Of a stretch of 64,000 bases of DNA, positions 5,597 to 63,614 are shown piece by piece (position 1 is the first letter of the stretch; every line of letters starts with the position of its first letter). A program made the translations under genes and the position numbers. Under the pieces are notes generated by a model that did no database searches, was not told where the DNA came from, and worked only from the letters and a program-made list of their open reading frames with translations. The stretch lies in contig DXFO01000032.1 in NCBI GenBank assembly GCA_019114415.1, positions 1 to 64,000 of the forward strand. Direction: 5' to 3'. Origin of the DNA: Candidatus Gemmiger faecavium (GTDB lineage: Bacteria; Bacillota; Clostridia; Oscillospirales; Ruminococcaceae).

Positions 5597-6472
5597 ATGA
5601 ATGCTGAAACTTTTTGCTTTGACGGGTCCCGGACCTGTGATCTGGACCGCCTGCCCACCGGGGCAGGCAAATACCGCGACCGCAAGGACGAATTTGCGCC
5701 CCGGACCGCCAACAATCTGAAACAGATGGAAGCCTTGCAGGAAGCCCTGTACGCCGACGGGCGGGAGGGGCTTATCATCCTGCTGCAGGCCCTGGACGCC
5801 GCGGGCAAGGACGGCACCGTCAAGCATGTCATGGGCGGGCTGAATCCCCAGGGCGTTGAAGTGCACAGCTTCAAAGTCCCCACTGAGGAGGACCTGCGTC
5901 ACGATTATCTGTGGCGGGTCAACCGCTGCCTGCCCCCGCGGGGCGGCATTGCCATTTTCAACCGCAGCTACTACGAGGACGTTCTGGTCGTGCGGATGCA
6001 CGAGCTTTTCCGCGGCTACCGGATGGCTGACCGGGTGCTGAACGAGTCTGACGAGGAGTTTTTCAAAAAGCGTTACCGCCAGATCCGGGATTACGAGGAA
6101 TATCTGTATGAAAACAGTTTCCGCGTGGTCAAGATCTTCCTGCACCTGTCCAAAAAAGAGCAGAAAAAGCGCTTTCTGGAGCGCATCGACACGCCCGAAA
6201 AGAACTGGAAGTTTTCCGCCGCCGACATCCGGGAGCGGGGCCGTTTTGAGGAATACAACAAACTGTACGAGCAGGTCATCAACGCGACGGCCAGCCGGCA
6301 CAGTCCCTGGTATGTCCTGCCCGCTGACCAGAAATGGTATACCCGGTATCTGGTCTCCGAGATCGTGGTGGATGCACTGAAACAGTGCGCCCCGAAATAT
6401 CCCGTCCTGTCCGGGGAGGAAAAAGCCCAGCTCCTCAAAGCCAGGGAGCAGCTGATGAACGAGCCCGACTGA
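5597..6472 (+). CDS. polyphosphate kinase 2 family protein
   Basis: A 291-aa soluble kinase that transfers phosphate between polyphosphate and nucleotides. PPK2 features are plain: Walker A LDAAGKDGT (residues 66-74), the downstream FKVPTEEDLRHDYLWR segment and Walker B IAIFNRSYYEDVLVVR (118-133), then a helical lid and the WKFSAADIRER stretch. This length and domain content fit the single-domain PPK2 group (AMP or NDP phosphorylating); the exact subclass is not determinable here. ATG 5597 has AGGAGG 7 bases upstream. The glycosyltransferase run starts 27 bases downstream, so co-transcription is possible. Confidence 0.93.
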   Translation: MNAETFCFDGSRTCDLDRLPTGAGKYRDRKDEFAPRTANNLKQMEALQEALYADGREGLIILLQALDAAGKDGTVKHVMGGLNPQGVEVHSFKVPTEEDLRHDYLWRVNRCLPPRGGIAIFNRSYYEDVLVVRMHELFRGYRMADRVLNESDEEFFKKRYRQIRDYEEYLYENSFRVVKIFLHLSKKEQKKRFLERIDTPEKNWKFSAADIRERGRFEEYNKLYEQVINATASRHSPWYVLPADQKWYTRYLVSEIVVDALKQCAPKYPVLSGEEKAQLLKAREQLMNEPD

Positions 6473-57267: not shown

Positions 57268-58101
57268 ATGGATAACCGTCCCATCGGCGTATTTGACAGC
57301 GGCCTCGGCGGCCTGACCGCCGTGCGTCAGCTTCGGCGGGTGCTGCCCGGCGAGGATATCGTCTACTTCGGCGACACCGGCCGCGTGCCCTACGGCTCCC
57401 GCGGGCGGGACATCATCGTCCAGTACGCCCGCCAGGACATCGGCTTCCTGCTGTCCAAGGATGTGAAATTCATCGTCGCCGCCTGCGGAACGGTCAGCTC
57501 GACCTACCCGCCCGCCGAGGCTTCCCGCCTCCCGGTCCCCTTCACCGGCGTGGTGGGGGCCACCGCCCGCCGGGCCGCCGCCGTCACCAAAAACGGCCGC
57601 ATCGGCGTCATCGGCACCCAGGCCACCATCCGCAGCGGCAGCTACCAGAGCCTGCTGAAAGAGCTGGTTCCTGACGCGCAGCTGTTTGCCCGGGCCTGCC
57701 CCCTCTTCGTGCCGCTGGTGGAAAACGGCTACATCGACGAGGGCAATCCCGTGACTCGGCTGGTCATCGCCGACTATCTGACGGAACTCCGGGATACCGG
57801 CATTGACACCCTGATCCTGGGCTGCACCCATTACCCGCTGCTGGAGGGCCTGATCGGCGAGTTCATGGGGCCCGATGTGACCCTCATCGACCCGGGCAAG
57901 TCCACCGCCGACGCGCTGGTGGATGCCCTGGACGCCCTGGAACTGCTCAACGGCAGGACCGAGGGCGGGCAGGCGGAATTTTACGTCAGCGACACCACCG
58001 AGAGCTTTGCCGAGGCCGAGGCACTGTTCCTGGGCAAGTACGGCGGCGGCCCGGTGACCCAGATTGCGATCGAGCAGTATGCTTGGCCGCCCAAACCCTA
58101 A
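57268..58101 (+). CDS. murI: glutamate racemase
   Basis: A 277-aa enzyme supplying D-Glu for peptidoglycan. VFDSGLGGLTAVRQLRR, YFGDTGRVPYGSR and LGCTHYPLLEG (second catalytic Cys) are standard. The first catalytic loop reads AACGTVSSTYP where most MurI proteins have ACNTAxA: the Cys and Thr are kept but the Asn is Gly. The gene is otherwise full length and sits in a ddl-murI pair, so it is probably active. Compare the racemase at 62889, which keeps CNT. Confidence 0.94.
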   Translation: MDNRPIGVFDSGLGGLTAVRQLRRVLPGEDIVYFGDTGRVPYGSRGRDIIVQYARQDIGFLLSKDVKFIVAACGTVSSTYPPAEASRLPVPFTGVVGATARRAAAVTKNGRIGVIGTQATIRSGSYQSLLKELVPDAQLFARACPLFVPLVENGYIDEGNPVTRLVIADYLTELRDTGIDTLILGCTHYPLLEGLIGEFMGPDVTLIDPGKSTADALVDALDALELLNGRTEGGQAEFYVSDTTESFAEAEALFLGKYGGGPVTQIAIEQYAWPPKP

Positions 58102-58619: not shown

Positions 58620-60380
58620 ATGACCGATTACCGCAACTACAACCCCCGCAAGACCGCCCTGGACGCAGCCCGCGACCTGCTGACCAAGGCCGCCTGTGCC
58701 GCCATGGACAGCGGTGCTCTGCCCAAGACCGATCTGCCGGATTTCATCGTTGAGATCCCGGCCGACACCAAAAACGGCGACGTGGCCGCCAACCTTGCCA
58801 TGGTGGGTGCCCGCGCCTTCCACAAGGCGCCGCGCCAGATCGCCGAGGCTGTGGTTGCCCAGCTGGATCTGACCGGCAGCCTGTTTGCCCGTGTGGAGAT
58901 CGCCGGTCCCGGCTTCATCAACCTGTTCCTGGGTGACGGCTGGTTCACCTCCGTCCTGCGCGCCGCCTGCGCGGGCCAGGATTACGGCCGCACCGATGCC
59001 GGCCAGGGCAAGCGCTACAACGTGGAGTTTGTTTCCGCCAACCCCACCGGCCCCATGCACATGGGCAACGCCCGCGGCGGCGCTCTGGGCGACTGCCTGG
59101 CCGCCTGCCTGGACTGGGCCGGTTACGACGTGACCCGCGAGTTTTACATCAACGACGCGGGCAACCAGATCCAGAAGTTCGGCAAGAGCCTGGCCATCCG
59201 CTATCTGCAGCTGTACAAGGGTGAGGAGGCCTGCCCTCTGCCCGAGGAGTGCTACCAGGGCGCCGACATCATTGAGCGTGCCAAGGAGTTTGCTGCCGTC
59301 CACGGCGACAGCTACGTCAACGCCGATTTTGAGGAACTGAAATCCGCCATCACCGCCGATGCCCTGCCCAAGAACATCGCCGGGCTCAAGCGCGACCTGG
59401 GCAAGTACCGCATTGAGTACGACGTCTGGTTCCCCGAGAGCACCCTCCACGACAGCGGTGCGGTGAACGACATCGTGCAGATCCTGCTGGACAAGGGTGC
59501 CTGCTACAAGGCCGAGGACGGCGCCATCATGTACAAGAGCGCCCAGTACAGCTCCAAGTACGGCGTTGCCAACAAGAAAAAGACCGATGACGGCAGTGAG
59601 GAGGAAGCCAAGGACGAGGTCCTGGTCCGCGCCAACGGCATCCCCACCTACTTTGCGGCGGACATTGCCTACCATTATAACAAGCTGGCCGTCCGCGGCT
59701 TTGACCGTGCCATCGACGTCTGGGGCGCCGACCATCACGGCCACGTTGCCCGTATGAAGGGTGCCATGGACGCCATCGGTCTGGATGGCAGCCGTCTGGA
59801 CGTGGTACTGATGCAGATGGTCAACCTGATCCGCGACGGCAAGCCCGTCCGCATGAGCAAGCGTACCGGCAAGGCCATCACCCTGACCGATCTGCTGGAC
59901 GATGTGCCCATCGATTCCGCCCGCTTCTTCTTCAACCAGCGGGAAAGCTCCTCCACCCTGGACTTCGACCTGGACCTGGCCGTCAAGAACGACAGCGACA
60001 ACCCGGTCTACTACGTCCAGTACGCCCATGCGCGCATCTGCTCCATCCTGAAGAAGCTGGAGCAGGAAGGCATCACCTTCCGCGGCAGCGAGGCCGCCGA
60101 CGCTTCGGTTCTGACCGATCCTTCCGAGCAGGCTCTGCTGCGTCTGATCGCCGCCTTCCCTGCCGAGATCGCCGCGGCTGCGGAAAAGTACGATCCCGCC
60201 CGCATCACCCGCTACACCATCGACGTGGCCAGCGCCTTCCACCGCTTCTACGGCGCCTGCCGCATCCTGGGTGCGGAGGATGCCGTCCAGCAGGCCCGCA
60301 TTGCCCTGTGCCTGGGTGTCCGCGACGTGCTGCGCAACGCGCTGACCATGTTCAAGATCAACGTTCCCGAGAGCATGTAA
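58620..60380 (+). CDS. argS: arginyl-tRNA synthetase
   Basis: A 586-aa class I synthetase. An N-terminal Add1 domain (about 1-120, GDVAANLAMVGARAFHKAPR) is followed by the HIGH-type motif VSANPTGPMHMGNARGGALG, the AADIAYHYNKLAVRGFDRAI-type segment and the KMSKS-equivalent VRMSKRTGKAITL. The anticodon-binding DALR domain ends the protein. GCAAAGGAG precedes ATG 58620. A terminator follows. Confidence 0.98.
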   Translation: MTDYRNYNPRKTALDAARDLLTKAACAAMDSGALPKTDLPDFIVEIPADTKNGDVAANLAMVGARAFHKAPRQIAEAVVAQLDLTGSLFARVEIAGPGFINLFLGDGWFTSVLRAACAGQDYGRTDAGQGKRYNVEFVSANPTGPMHMGNARGGALGDCLAACLDWAGYDVTREFYINDAGNQIQKFGKSLAIRYLQLYKGEEACPLPEECYQGADIIERAKEFAAVHGDSYVNADFEELKSAITADALPKNIAGLKRDLGKYRIEYDVWFPESTLHDSGAVNDIVQILLDKGACYKAEDGAIMYKSAQYSSKYGVANKKKTDDGSEEEAKDEVLVRANGIPTYFAADIAYHYNKLAVRGFDRAIDVWGADHHGHVARMKGAMDAIGLDGSRLDVVLMQMVNLIRDGKPVRMSKRTGKAITLTDLLDDVPIDSARFFFNQRESSSTLDFDLDLAVKNDSDNPVYYVQYAHARICSILKKLEQEGITFRGSEAADASVLTDPSEQALLRLIAAFPAEIAAAAEKYDPARITRYTIDVASAFHRFYGACRILGAEDAVQQARIALCLGVRDVLRNALTMFKINVPESM

Positions 60381-60413
60381 GCAAAAAAGCATCGTTTTAT
60401 CGTGCAATAGAAG

Positions 60414-60446
60414 AAGCCCCGCAGGTTGCAGCCTGCGGGGCTTTCT
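60414..60446 (+). terminator. terminator of argS
   Basis: AAGCCCCGCAGG pairs with CCTGCGGGGCTT around TTGCAG, then TCTGTG. The GC-rich stem is perfect; the T-run is short. Confidence 0.8.
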
Positions 60447-60549
60447 GTGTTTAGGTACACCGAATAAACTTATTATATCACATCCGTCAATGTACTTTCA
60501 ACTCAATTTATGCACAAATAAATCCTTGTAAGGTTGTCGGGTTTGCGAA

Positions 60550-60578
60550 TGGACGTTCATTTGGGCCTGTGGTATATT
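60550..60578 (+). promoter_or_regulatory. promoter of the large non-coding RNA
   Basis: TGGACG (60550-60555), 17 bases, TATATT (60573-60578), giving a predicted start near 60586. The -35 matches the consensus at four of six positions and the -10 at five. No other promoter-like pair is as good before the A/G-rich region begins. Confidence 0.5.
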
Positions 60579-61036
60579 ATAGTCACAGAAAGAAAACAGC
60601 CGGAGATAAGGAGACAGAAACTCCAAGAGCCCACTTCTCAAAAGGTTCGGTCACAAAGTTCTGAAGTTCTTTTCTAAAGGCTTAAGGTCAAGTTCATTGA
60701 AGGTTTCTTTCTAAAAAGCATACCGAGGAAAACGGAGCGGCAAAGTAAATCAGAAAAAACGGATTCAGAAATTAGAAAGTTCAAAAGCAGGTTTCCGGTT
60801 CAGGTTTTCGAAAGAAAATCAGATCAGGAAAAGGCAGATGAAACAGAAAGAGATTTGAAGAAGTGAAATCTGAAAGGAAATGCAGAATCCAAAAAGAATC
60901 GGATATGTAGAAAGAGATGCGGTGGAATACCTTAAAAGGTCCAGAAAAGCAAAATTCAAAACAGACCGAGGGTTTTTGACAAGTTGTAAAAAAGAGGCAC
61001 GCCGGCAGGATTCGTAAGGAAGGAGGCTCAGGTCCC

Positions 61037-61087
61037 ATGGCAAACTTTAAAGATCCCATTCATCACCGGCAGGCCTGGGCTTGCTGA
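61037..61087 (+). other. possible 16-codon ORF inside the large RNA
   Basis: ATG 61037 has AGGAGG ten bases upstream and opens MANFKDPIHHRQAWAC followed by TGA. The ribosome site is good, but the peptide shows no signal or motif. It may be chance in a purine-rich RNA. Confidence 0.25.
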
Positions 61088-61224
61088 GACGACAGAAACC
61101 ACATCAAGAGCCGCAGGTCATAACCTGTACAGAAGCACTACAAATGATGGTTGGTTCTGAAAACGATCAAGATGCAATCCCAGGGCCTGTCAAATCAGAC
61201 AGCTTTATATAGATAGATGATAAG

Positions 61225-61698
61225 ACGAACGAAGGGTGAAAATCCAGATAGTCCGCCAAACCTGATAAAGCAAATCTTAACCTTTAAGATAGAGCGTAAG
61301 GTTTCATCTAGCTGAACAAGGAGTTACTCCAATGTACTAGAGTAAAGAGGATCTTCCTCTCAGCATCACATCCCCAAAGCCCATTGCAGGAAACAGATGA
61401 TCTTCCCGGTTCCACAGATGCAGGGTAAGTAACGAACGATTGAAAATACGTTGACAAAGTGTCCTGAAGTTTCAGGCCGGAGCCACTCCCAGGTAATCCG
61501 AGATAGTTTCAAAGACACCGCAGGGTACAGAGTTCCTGGTAAAGCAAACTGGTCAAATACAAACGATTTTCCCTCTTCTCTTCCCTAGGCAAATAACGAA
61601 CGACAGGGCGATCGGTAAAATCTTCCGAAGTATCGAGGCAGAGATCCTTGAATCTTAGCCTGATTCCAGCAAAGTTCCTGGTAACCATTACAAGCAAA
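61225..61698 (+). repeat. three repeated modules within the large RNA
   Basis: ACGAACGA occurs at 61225-61232, 61432-61439 and 61596-61603, each preceded by an A-rich lead (TAAG, TAAGTA, AAATA). Each is followed by a second motif: CCTGATAAAGCAAA (61261-61274), CCTGGTAAAGCAAA (61535-61548) and CCTGGTAA-CCATTACA-AGCAAA (61677-61698, with an insertion). The last two also share AGTTCCTGGTAA (61531-61542, 61673-61684). The spacings differ (about 45, 112 and 98 bases), so these are repeated structural modules and not recent tandem copies. Confidence 0.75.
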
Positions 61699-61842
61699 TC
61701 CTAAGGTTTTTACCACAAGGTTCCGGCAAGAATGGGTTCGATCCACACAATATCTGGAAGAGGTAACTCATGAAAATGAGTCAACGGTCCGAAAAATAGT
61801 GAATCACGGGTATGAGGCTATGACTCCGAAGAAGTAATACCG

Positions 61843-61877
61843 GCGGGACACACAGAAATGTGTGTCCCGCCTTTTTT
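61843..61877 (+). terminator. terminator of the large RNA
   Basis: GCGGGACACACA (61843-61854) pairs perfectly with TGTGTGTCCCGC (61859-61870) around a GAAA loop, then CTTTTTTGG. No protein gene lies upstream that would otherwise explain it. Confidence 0.92.
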
Positions 61878-61919
61878 GGCATTGGGTTATTGATGAGCAC
61901 AGCGACAAACCGGAAGGTA

Positions 61920-62438
61920 TCAATCAAATAATCCTTCGGACATCAACAGTTCAAGAACTTTTGCTTCTCTCTCAAACATAGCCTGATTGTAAGGGCTTTG
62001 TGCTACATTGCGATTCTTTCTTATCGCAGTTTTGGGATCGACAAATTCTAAAGTATATGTTTCTGCCAATTCATACTCGTCCAAGTTTTGCGCAACCACA
62101 CCTTCCTCTGCTTCACAAAGGTAATAATAATTGTCCTGAACAAAGCATTCCGTCTCATCCGCATCACTCTTCTGAATGCGGTGGACATATCCATATTCTT
62201 TTATCGTTTCGGGTTTAACTACCAGCCCCGATTCTTCACGGGTTTCCCGTATCATAGCATCTATGGGATTCTCACCGCTTTCAATCCCTCCGCCGGGAAA
62301 CTTATAGTAGTCATATTTCAAGCTGTGAACCATAGCGATCTTGTTGTTTACAATGATAATGCTTCTGGCAGAATTGCGAACAAATGTGTGTGTACATTTC
62401 CCGTAATCTTTCTTATCCATCTCAAATAGTAATCTCAT
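61920..62438 (-). CDS. NUDIX hydrolase
   Basis: A 172-aa NUDIX enzyme. The Nudix box GGGIESGENPIDAMIRETRE followed by ESGL gives the G-x5-E-x7-REUxEExGU pattern. Upstream IIIVNNKIAMVHSLKYDYYKF and the FVDPKTAIRKN tail complete the fold. It probably hydrolyses a nucleoside diphosphate derivative; substrate unknown. Codon use is clearly more A/T-rich than the surrounding genes, suggesting later arrival together with the neighbouring RNA region. ATG 62438 has GAGGAGG upstream. It converges on the RNA terminator. Confidence 0.92.
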   Translation of the reverse strand: MRLLFEMDKKDYGKCTHTFVRNSARSIIIVNNKIAMVHSLKYDYYKFPGGGIESGENPIDAMIRETREESGLVVKPETIKEYGYVHRIQKSDADETECFVQDNYYYLCEAEEGVVAQNLDEYELAETYTLEFVDPKTAIRKNRNVAQSPYNQAMFEREAKVLELLMSEGLFD

Positions 62439-62597
62439 GTTGCCTCCTCAAATCCCGATTTTCATTAACACACTTGCTGATGGCGAACAACATTTTATGC
62501 TGTTTGCGGACGAGAATTCATCATAACTTTTTTATAAGAAATATATCACTAAAATACGAGTAATTCCACCGTCTAATATTGAAGCTCCCCCAAACAG

Positions 62598-62626
62598 TTT
62601 CTATCTGCTCAGACAGTCTCTGTCAA
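62598..62626 (-). promoter_or_regulatory. possible promoter of the NUDIX gene
   Basis: On the minus strand TTGACA (62621-62626), 17 bases, TAGAAA (62598-62603). It is about 160 bases upstream of the ATG. Confidence 0.4.
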
Positions 62627-62856: not shown

Positions 62857-62888
62857 AAGAGTATTAGTCAAAAATGGGAGGTGTGCGC

Positions 62889-63614
62889 ATGGCGATACCG
62901 CAGCCGGGCCAACATCCGGTGCTCGGCATTTTGGGCGGGCTTGGTCCCGCCGCAAGCTGTTATCTCTATCAGATGCTGATCGACCACACCCCTGCCGTAC
63001 GCGACCAGGACCACATCGATATTGTGATTTCTTCCCGCGCATCGACACCGGACCGAACGGCGTTTATCGTCGGGGAAAGCAAGGACGATCCCTTTCTTGT
63101 CATGGAGCAGGACGGCAAAAGCCTGGTCGCCTACGGTGCAACGGTGCTGGCCATCCCCTGCAACACCGCACATTATTTCTATGACCGCCTTGCGGCGGCA
63201 CTGCCGGTCCCGGTGCTCAACATGCCCCGGCTGACCGTGGCGGCCGCCAAAGCCGCCGGGTGCAAAAAGCTGGGCATCCTGGCAACGGACGGCACGTTGC
63301 TGGCCGGCACCTATCAGCTGATGTGCGGCGAGGCCGGCGTTGAGTACGCCGCCCCCTCCCCCGAGCACCAGCGCGGCGTGATGACGGTGATCTACGACCA
63401 GATCAAGCAGGGCCAGCGTGCCGACATGGCACTGTTCAATGCCGCGGCTGACGATTTGAAACGTCAGGGCTGCGACATGGCTGTGCTGGGCTGCACCGAG
63501 CTGAGCCTGGTCAAGCGGGATGAAAAGCTGGGCAGCTTTTTCATCGACAGCACCGAGGTCCTGTGCAAAAATGCCCTGCTTGCCTGTGGGGTACAGCCCA
63601 TCGGGTTTGACTGA
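62889..63614 (+). CDS. aspartate/glutamate racemase family protein
   Basis: A 241-aa enzyme of the Asp/Glu/hydantoin racemase family. LGILGGLGPAASCYLYQMLI is the start of the aspartate racemase group; LAIPCNTAHYFYDRL carries the first catalytic Cys and MAVLGCTELSLV the second. It interconverts L- and D-forms of an acidic or other amino acid; substrate not determined. GGGAGG lies seven bases before ATG 62889. It is followed 85 bases later by metG. Confidence 0.9.
   Translation: MAIPQPGQHPVLGILGGLGPAASCYLYQMLIDHTPAVRDQDHIDIVISSRASTPDRTAFIVGESKDDPFLVMEQDGKSLVAYGATVLAIPCNTAHYFYDRLAAALPVPVLNMPRLTVAAAKAAGCKKLGILATDGTLLAGTYQLMCGEAGVEYAAPSPEHQRGVMTVIYDQIKQGQRADMALFNAAADDLKRQGCDMAVLGCTELSLVKRDEKLGSFFIDSTEVLCKNALLACGVQPIGFD

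Follow-up and report, generated by a model that had tools for sequence, protein, structure and literature searches.

Several described systems resemble parts of the RNA gene analyzed in this study. Lambda bar is a two-codon minigene; the large RNAs OLE, GOLLD, ROOL and HEARO are built of a conserved core with variable arms; and in the TnaC, SecM and ErmC leaders a short reading frame lies over a hairpin, and the position of the ribosome can set the fold of the RNA. RNAIII and SgrS are other dual-function RNAs to which the present one can be likened. VcdRP encodes a single small protein, 29 amino acids long, according to the available part of its report (PMC8672173). For two-codon minigenes, the available part of PMC8708949 describes the release of peptidyl-tRNA, the shielding of mRNA by bound ribosomes, and one minigene that had no inhibitory effect on growth. 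The main text of PMC8040213, in its available part, made no mention of Faecalibacterium, Gemmiger or Subdoligranulum.

The RNA described here shares with VcdRP the form of a stand-alone, regulatory-type RNA with a short ORF (PMC8672173, available part), but it carries four to about ten frames of 2–16 codons in a fixed order, for which the signs of coding are comparative. With the two-codon minigenes of the axe-txe leader it shares the arrangement of a Shine-Dalgarno sequence (SD), an ATG, one sense codon and a stop; those minigenes, as presented in the available part of PMC8708949, are located in leaders or within other genes and act in cis, whereas in the present RNA, which is stand-alone and structured, they recur as repeated elements. 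Being a large structured bacterial RNA is what it has in common with OLE, GOLLD and ROOL (PMC12286853, available part). It differs from these three and from HEARO in that no Rfam match and no viral contig were found for it and in its row of micro-ORFs, and from the TnaC, SecM and ErmC leaders in that it ends in its own terminator without a regulated gene downstream, the next gene of the window being on the opposite strand. No class built as a stand-alone structured RNA with a row of minigenes was found in Rfam or in a search of the open-access literature and, to our knowledge, no described RNA family keeps repeated two-codon frames as conserved parts. Because no described class is known to have this build, the anatomy is taken, with moderate confidence, to be new.

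The RNA gene was analyzed in a stretch of 64,000 nucleotides from a Gemmiger contig (the window), in which a gap of about 1.5 kb without a long ORF extends from the end of argS (60380) to a NUDIX gene. The features of the region are as follows.

58620–60380: argS (Pfam), the upstream neighbor of the RNA gene in the window
60541–60578, plus strand: promoter-like region; the upstream element TTTGCGAATGGAC includes the -35 element TGGACG (60550–60555), followed by a 17-nt spacer and the -10 element TATATT (60573–60578)
60584–60627, plus strand: conserved 5' end CACAGAAAGAAAACAGCCGGAGATAAGGAGACAGAAACTCCAAG, with a small hairpin GGAG..CTCC read by eye
60628–61005, plus strand: long hairpin arm, rich in purines and evolving fast, with lengths from 25 to 681 nt across 35 Gemmiger copies
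61020–61026, plus strand: SD of ORF1, AAGGAGG, with this sequence in 34 of 35 Gemmiger copies
61037–61087, plus strand: ORF1, MANFKDPIHHRQAWAC, 16 codons and a stop, overlapping a predicted RNA hairpin
61098–61155, plus strand: conserved RNA segment with the hairpin CAGGTCATAACCTG at 61114–61127, which has compensatory changes in single copies
61332–61340, plus strand: ORF2, the two-codon frame ATG TAC TAG, with the SD AAGGAG at 61318–61323
61770–61799, plus strand: ORF3, MKMSQRSEK and a stop, with the SD GAGG at 61760–61763
61820–61837, plus strand: ORF4, MTPKK and a stop, with GAGG at 61814–61817
61842–61877, plus strand: intrinsic terminator with a 13-bp stem, a GAAA loop and a T run, directly after the last micro-ORF
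61920–62438, opposite strand to the RNA: NUDIX gene (Pfam)

The promoter-like element matches the consensus at 9 of 12 positions, and a promoter scan of 60000–62600 found five sites against 3.7 expected in shuffled sequences, so that the scan alone is at chance level. The promoter TGGACG-17-TATATT named in the earlier note is present at 60550–60578 and recurs with variants in the related copies that were read; a block TGCGAAT.GA...TATA.T is shared by the Gemmiger copies and by those of genera g81, g13 and g110 (genera are given by our own labels), with variants elsewhere. At the other end, the terminator has the GAAA loop that the same note described, on a stem that the scan found to be 13 bp long, not 12. 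The hairpin GGAG..CTCC of the 5' end is replaced by GGAAC..GTTCC in other copies, and the segments ACCACATC (61098–61105) and GATGGTTGGT (61146–61155) could pair around the hairpin CAGGTCATAACCTG; both were read by eye from the sequences. Regulation of the NUDIX gene in cis was rejected, as that gene is on the opposite strand with the terminator in between. Two racemase-like genes flank the region of argS and the RNA, a MurI-like frame read by eye (57268–58101) and an Asp/Glu racemase identified by Pfam (62874–63614).

The search of Rfam 15, a check that the earlier note had proposed for 60500–61900, gave nothing at gathering score over the whole window. With the threshold relaxed to E≤10, four matches were obtained over 60450–61920, all far below gathering scores; at E≤1, all matches in seven Gemmiger loci were below gathering scores, such as those to Leu_leader and STnc320 over the 3' ends; and in 12 loci of other genera the matches above gathering were limited to two neighboring tRNA stretches and one separate 6S RNA. 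The known classes OLE, GOLLD, ROOL, HEARO, 6S and tmRNA were thus rejected, with no gathering-score match in the window or in the copies of relatives. A derived tRNA or tmRNA was rejected as well: ARAGORN called no gene in the window, and TTCGATCC near 61738 is outside any called tRNA. A phage or plasmid element was also considered and rejected, in that the window copy matches none in phages or plasmids; four exact patterns, drawn from copies of Gemmiger, g81 and g26/g58, were absent from the viral contigs searched.

The homolog search that had been proposed for this locus was productive. By blastn, the RNA gene was found in 33 of 35 Gemmiger genomes, including all 19 good ones (completeness of 90% or more, contamination of 5% or less); the copy of G009 has 90% identity over the RNA. 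A model of the core (R1) gave matches only in Gemmiger among 396 genomes of the family and, in a sample of 394 genomes of the order, matched the window genome; the sole other match there, in G427 of a different family, was weak (24.1 bits, E 0.0064) and was treated as chance. The conclusion that the RNA is limited to Gemmiger was nevertheless overturned by the regions downstream of argS in sister genera and by two further models, which recover their own members by construction. R2, a sequence-only model of the 3' end, was built from 21 of 37 candidate 3' ends, leaving out near-duplicates and copies without the end of ORF3. Among the 396 family genomes it matched g81, g13 and g53 at E<1e-8 and g110 by repeated weaker matches; in additional genera it gave matches no better than E 1.4e-4, among them locus L162, and these were taken as noise. 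R3, a model of the ORF1 region built from 22 ORF1 regions out of 73 copies, matched, at E≤1e-3, 38 genomes among 328 of the family, which belong to 11 of its 119 sampled genera, and in an order-level sample 5 of 285 genomes at E≤1e-4, all within the same family. Outside the family, no convincing profile match was found in the two order-level samples (394 genomes with R1 and 285 with R3).

By R2, the RNA gene is present in 28 of 31 genomes of g81, which from its kinship is probably Faecalibacterium, and in all 22 good ones. Every good genome searched of g81 and of Gemmiger carries the RNA, which is thus a constant component of these bacteria; strains of Gemmiger formicilis are among those in culture. 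The row of micro-ORFs is visible in 10 of the 11 genera matched by R3 (g1, g9, g13, g19, g21, g26, g32, g58, g81 and g110); in g42 an ORF1-like frame was the only part found, and in g53 a 3' fragment. Of 20 further stretches that were fetched, 17 joined the set of 90 copies analyzed below, and three (L226, L230 and L235, belonging to g19, g32 and g26) were dropped since the row was unreadable in them. One apparent second genus was rejected: on contig DXIW01000061.1 of 'Candidatus Acutalibacter stercorigallinarum' (L071), the ORFs around the RNA are arranged just as on the Gemmiger contig L067, and L071 was therefore treated as probably mis-binned.

The gene argS is located upstream of the RNA in 26 of 35 Gemmiger, 10 of 28 g81, 4 of 4 g13 and 4 of 4 g9 copies. 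It is absent from the available stretch in 6 Gemmiger, 17 g81 and 3 g110 copies, so a link to argS is not needed; the other 17 copies in this neighbor count had too short a flanking stretch. Strains of G. formicilis have extra copies beside unrelated genes, which were by eye a two-component system with a MATE transporter, a glycerate-kinase-like gene, and an ABC transporter with a panE-like gene, and the RNA is therefore a stand-alone gene. Three copies are present in G. formicilis ATCC 27749, and the copy of a g81 type strain is compact. Two g13 loci (L098 and L155) have two tandem RNA genes after argS, each with its promoter, ORF1 and terminator, and in the g110 locus L159 the 6S RNA (5677–5865) is located about 2 kb downstream of the RNA copy.

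The Gemmiger RNAs are about 0.5–1.5 kb in length. Between their conserved blocks (the 5' end, the core, a small middle block and the 3' end) are arms whose length varies greatly. The first half of the RNA is purine-rich, as previously noted, with 64% A+G in 60628–61010, and the segment 60626–61005 was predicted to form one long interrupted hairpin (z -4.0; none of 100 shuffles as stable). This long purine arm was rejected as the functional core because it is shrunk to 25–45 nt in three copies. The second half had been described as hairpin-rich; this was not borne out, with 61000–61841 folding no better than shuffled sequences (z +1.4; 17 of 20 shuffles as stable). Among the arms of at least 120 nt, 23 of 32 had a z-score below -2 and nine did not. 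All 16 RNAs tested, which were chosen from the 90 copies and nine genera and folded with approximate ends, mostly including the terminator, and 20 shuffles each, folded better than shuffles, with z-scores from -2.4 to -7.4.

Covariation, which the earlier note had named as a check, was analyzed in g81 on 13 of the 17 short copies, out of 28 g81 copies in all; L165 was left out as divergent, and L179, L181 and L185 were taken as near-duplicates. The consensus fold has 97 pairs, and 96% of the cells pair. Four of five measures were above column shuffles, with both-side changes in eight pairs against 3.8 in shuffles and a covariation score of 0.082 against 0.054 (none of 500 shuffles as high; 0.017–0.032 in slid versions), and the fifth, further pair types, was not (184 of 500 as high). 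The covariation is support for the fold but no proof of it, since kinship alone can exceed such controls. Taken with the absence of any Rfam family, these analyses support the conclusion that the RNA is a stand-alone, large, structured gene.

The RNA also carries conserved reading frames. The first of them, ORF1, is intact in all 35 Gemmiger copies, with 16 codons (15 in three copies); in G006b its SD is AAGGGGG. Across genera it has 14–16 codons and is always the first frame of the row. Its peptide is MVDMDPVQFGQTVGSR and similar in g81, MKIEEPVQFWQVCAD in g110, MSNTEPVQQWQARGR in g9, MFSDTTPAQNGRLGSC in g13, MVIEEPVQFWQDGTCR in g26 and MVKEEPKQFGQGGSCR in g58, with a consensus by eye of about M..EEPVQFWQ..G..R, recognizable in about 11 genera. 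In an alignment of five genera, gaps within the frame were multiples of three (3 or 6) in 21 of 22 rows, the sole exception being L030, which has a single-column gap next to a shifted ORF1 start; gaps between the SD and the ATG of ORF1 were 1–3 long. The stop of ORF1 is lost in L165.

Parsimony on a tree of the Gemmiger copies placed 5, 15 and 24 changes of ORF1 at codon positions 1, 2 and 3. By our reading of these changes, 26 of the 44 inferred are synonymous (the 24 at third positions and two TGA/TAA changes), against 11–13 expected for random changes, and the fraction of simulated sets reaching 26 was 0, 0 and 5e-5 for three transition fractions. Part of this codon conservation may be due to RNA pairing, since ORF1 overlaps a predicted hairpin.

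The conservation of the ORF1 peptide and its excess of synonymous changes would be expected if the RNA were a polycistronic messenger for micropeptides, in which the products of ORF1 and of ORF3 and ORF4 would serve for signaling, as effectors or in ribosome arrest, and the fold would mainly set their expression. In the g81 copies L183–L185, ORF1 ends in PAQFGQAVGIR and a stop (PAQQGQAVGIR in L184), an end that resembles the SecM arrest motif P....QA.GIR; this likeness would also fit such a messenger. Against it, ORF1 is strongly different between genera, the frames cover a minor part of the length of the RNA, and the two-codon frames, with their varying sense codon, yield no specific peptide product. 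We therefore regard the micropeptide messenger as rather unlikely.

After ORF1, the order of the row is further frames, two-codon frames, ORF3, and ORF4 next to the terminator, ORF3 and ORF4 being found in Gemmiger and the nearest genera. The frames were counted with the pattern SD-N3..11-CCN-ATG, which was drawn from the same sequences in which it was later counted. The 90 copies from 12 genera contain 298 such sites, of which 140 are two-codon minigenes (SD, ATG, one sense codon and a stop; in the window at 61318–61340), 172 have four codons or fewer, and 294 reach a stop within 17 codons; because the copies are related, these counts are not independent events. A site of four codons or fewer is present in 88 of the 90 copies; 15 have no frame of exactly two codons, and the maximum is four per copy. 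The antisense strands of the same copies have a single site, and 50 dinucleotide-shuffled sets, which ignore the kinship among copies, had on average 13.2 sites, with no set above 22, and 0.44 two-codon frames, with no set above 3. Counted as pattern matches, the numbers were 556 and 259 on the real strand against 16.6 and 0.65 in the shuffles.

The third codon of the two-codon frames is TAG in 59 cases, TAA in 50 and TGA in 31, and TGG was found at none of the 298 sites, where by our arithmetic from these counts about 13 would be expected if both purines varied freely. The second codon is TAC in 103 cases, ATT in 19, TGC and TGG in five each, ATC and TTC in three each, and AGC and AAC in one each. 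At the first CCNATGTAC site of Gemmiger, which is the ORF2 site, all 35 copies have an in-frame stop within four codons (22 two-codon, 10 three-codon and 3 four-codon frames). Variants longer than two codons that likewise end in frame include MYS, MYN, MYR, MNG and MYD, each followed by its stop. On rough trees, the stop switches at the Gemmiger ORF2 site took eight steps (length changes included), at ORF4 five (the one loss included) and at ORF3 five, and those at the first g81 mini-ORF four. In 6 of 16 short g81 copies the second mini-ORF has lost its two-codon form, and in one of the six, L182, it extends over 15 codons. A g81 frame MK...FE has a TTTGAAT end that pairs with an upstream ATTCAAA. 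Two g81 copies (L166 and L167) have four two-codon sites, in which the second codon is TAC, ATT or AAC; internal duplication appears to have enlarged these rows, and a duplicated module was also observed in L156 and L158.

The frames near the 3' end are likewise kept. The end motif of ORF3 was found in 57 of the 71 copies that carry the ORF4 motif, and an in-frame ATG in all 57; four copies also have ATGs in other frames, the length is 7–10 codons (12 with an upstream ATG), and an SD-like stretch, by our list, is missing in three of the 57. Of the 14 copies in which the end motif is missing, ten are from Gemmiger, and three from g110 have ORF3 earlier in the RNA (MTFKVQSEK or MTKVQSEK and a stop). 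In g81, MKRPVQTEK and MKRILRK, each with its stop, differ by a 5-nt gap together with an A run that is one base shorter, so that the frame is kept. ORF4 keeps its length of five codons in 70 of 71 copies and reads on in G017. Its start codon is between GAGG and CTCC, which can pair, and the distance of 2 nt from GAGG to the ATG is too short for a normal SD. In g9, g26, g58, g19 and g21, the last frame is ATG TAC stop in place of ORF4. In Gemmiger, g81, g13, g110, g9, g26, g58 and g21, the terminator comes immediately after the last micro-ORF; in g19 a short distance separates the two.

These findings bear on the explanation that the RNA is an ornate but purely noncoding one, in which GAGG-N-CCNATGTACTRR would be a motif of tertiary structure or protein binding and the frames would be illusory. 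Such an RNA would have structure and covariation, as this one does; GG..CC around the SD can pair; and AATGTAC is strongly conserved within Gemmiger. A motif of this kind does not account for a second codon that varies (ATT, ATC, TTC, TGC, TGG, AAC) while the stop is retained, for stops that interchange among themselves and never with TGG, for three- and four-codon variants that also end in frame, or for the gaps of ORF1 being multiples of three in nearly all rows. ORF1 to ORF4 are conserved in frame, which an RNA without any conserved frame would not show, and the noncoding explanation was considered very unlikely. The earlier note had proposed a large structured RNA with no credible protein gene. 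The RNA part of that proposal stands and the second part does not, as four tiny conserved frames are present; the intact frames in the homologs, which it had named as evidence against an RNA, are micro-ORFs of 2–16 codons and not one protein gene, and the RNA reading survives. We consider it highly probable that the locus is a true RNA gene and that the micro-ORFs of its row are genuine. As read from the related copies, the row is kept as reading frames, in its order and in its place relative to the terminator, though sense codons, stops and lengths change.

Two further explanations were considered. One is that the two-codon frames act as a brake, in which peptidyl-tRNA drop-off would tie up particular tRNAs or initiation factors. 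Two-codon minigenes with a strong SD were reported to inhibit translation by peptidyl-tRNA release, although the minigene of that study itself gave no growth inhibition when expressed (PMC8708949, available part). The extra gene copies and sites suggest that dosage matters, as a brake would have it; however, the sense and stop codons vary, and therefore no single tRNA is targeted, and ORF1, ORF3 and the long arms are left unexplained. A brake of this type was judged quite unlikely. The other is that the micro-ORFs serve the RNA itself, with loaded ribosomes shielding a long untranslated transcript from Rho or RNases while its real role, as a scaffold or sponge, would be elsewhere. A ribosome on the SD of a mini-ORF was reported to shield mRNA from nuclease (PMC8708949, available part), which is the effect that this explanation calls for, but shielding predicts no conserved order, no site adjacent to the terminator and no fixed position relative to helices, and protection as the purpose of the row appears unlikely.

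The explanation that we favor, to which we give an even chance on the strength of the sequence comparisons, is that of a structured RNA that would engage ribosomes at several fixed start-stop sites. A stand-alone transcription unit would produce a large RNA carrying micro-ORFs, each with its own ribosome-binding site; ribosomes would initiate at several fixed points, form about 0–15 peptide bonds and stop in place. On a two-codon frame the initiating and the terminating ribosome would cover the same stretch, and such a site would therefore be a docking site. Several frames span a predicted hairpin, and a ribosome crossing such a frame would therefore open it. Since a two-codon frame gives no useful specific peptide and its form is kept despite changes of the sense codon, the act of initiation and termination may itself be the purpose; that these frames serve ribosome engagement rather than peptides is a tentative conclusion, to which we give slightly less than an even chance.

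The most likely mechanism would be that of a ribosome-engaging scaffold or decoy RNA, with its shape and output set by ribosome traffic. As nothing is transcribed downstream of the terminator, the RNA would act in trans, and the extra gene copies, together with up to four two-codon sites per copy, are consistent with a dosage-dependent, trans-acting role. It is possible, though we hold it somewhat more doubtful than not, that the RNA represents a new class, a scaffold with an ordered start-stop array that docks several ribosomes at fixed positions and whose occupancy and shape report, or regulate, the state of translation.

In conclusion, this RNA brings together two fields that are usually separate, those of large structured RNAs and of minigenes. 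Genes of this type can be overlooked both by ORF pipelines, since the frames are below the 20-codon limit of ORF listing, and by pipelines for noncoding RNA, since the RNA is not a pure noncoding RNA. The proposed explanation predicts initiating ribosomes at named nucleotides of one RNA. If the reading as a docking scaffold is true, a single RNA would, through its occupancy and shape, either reflect the translation state of the cell or control it.
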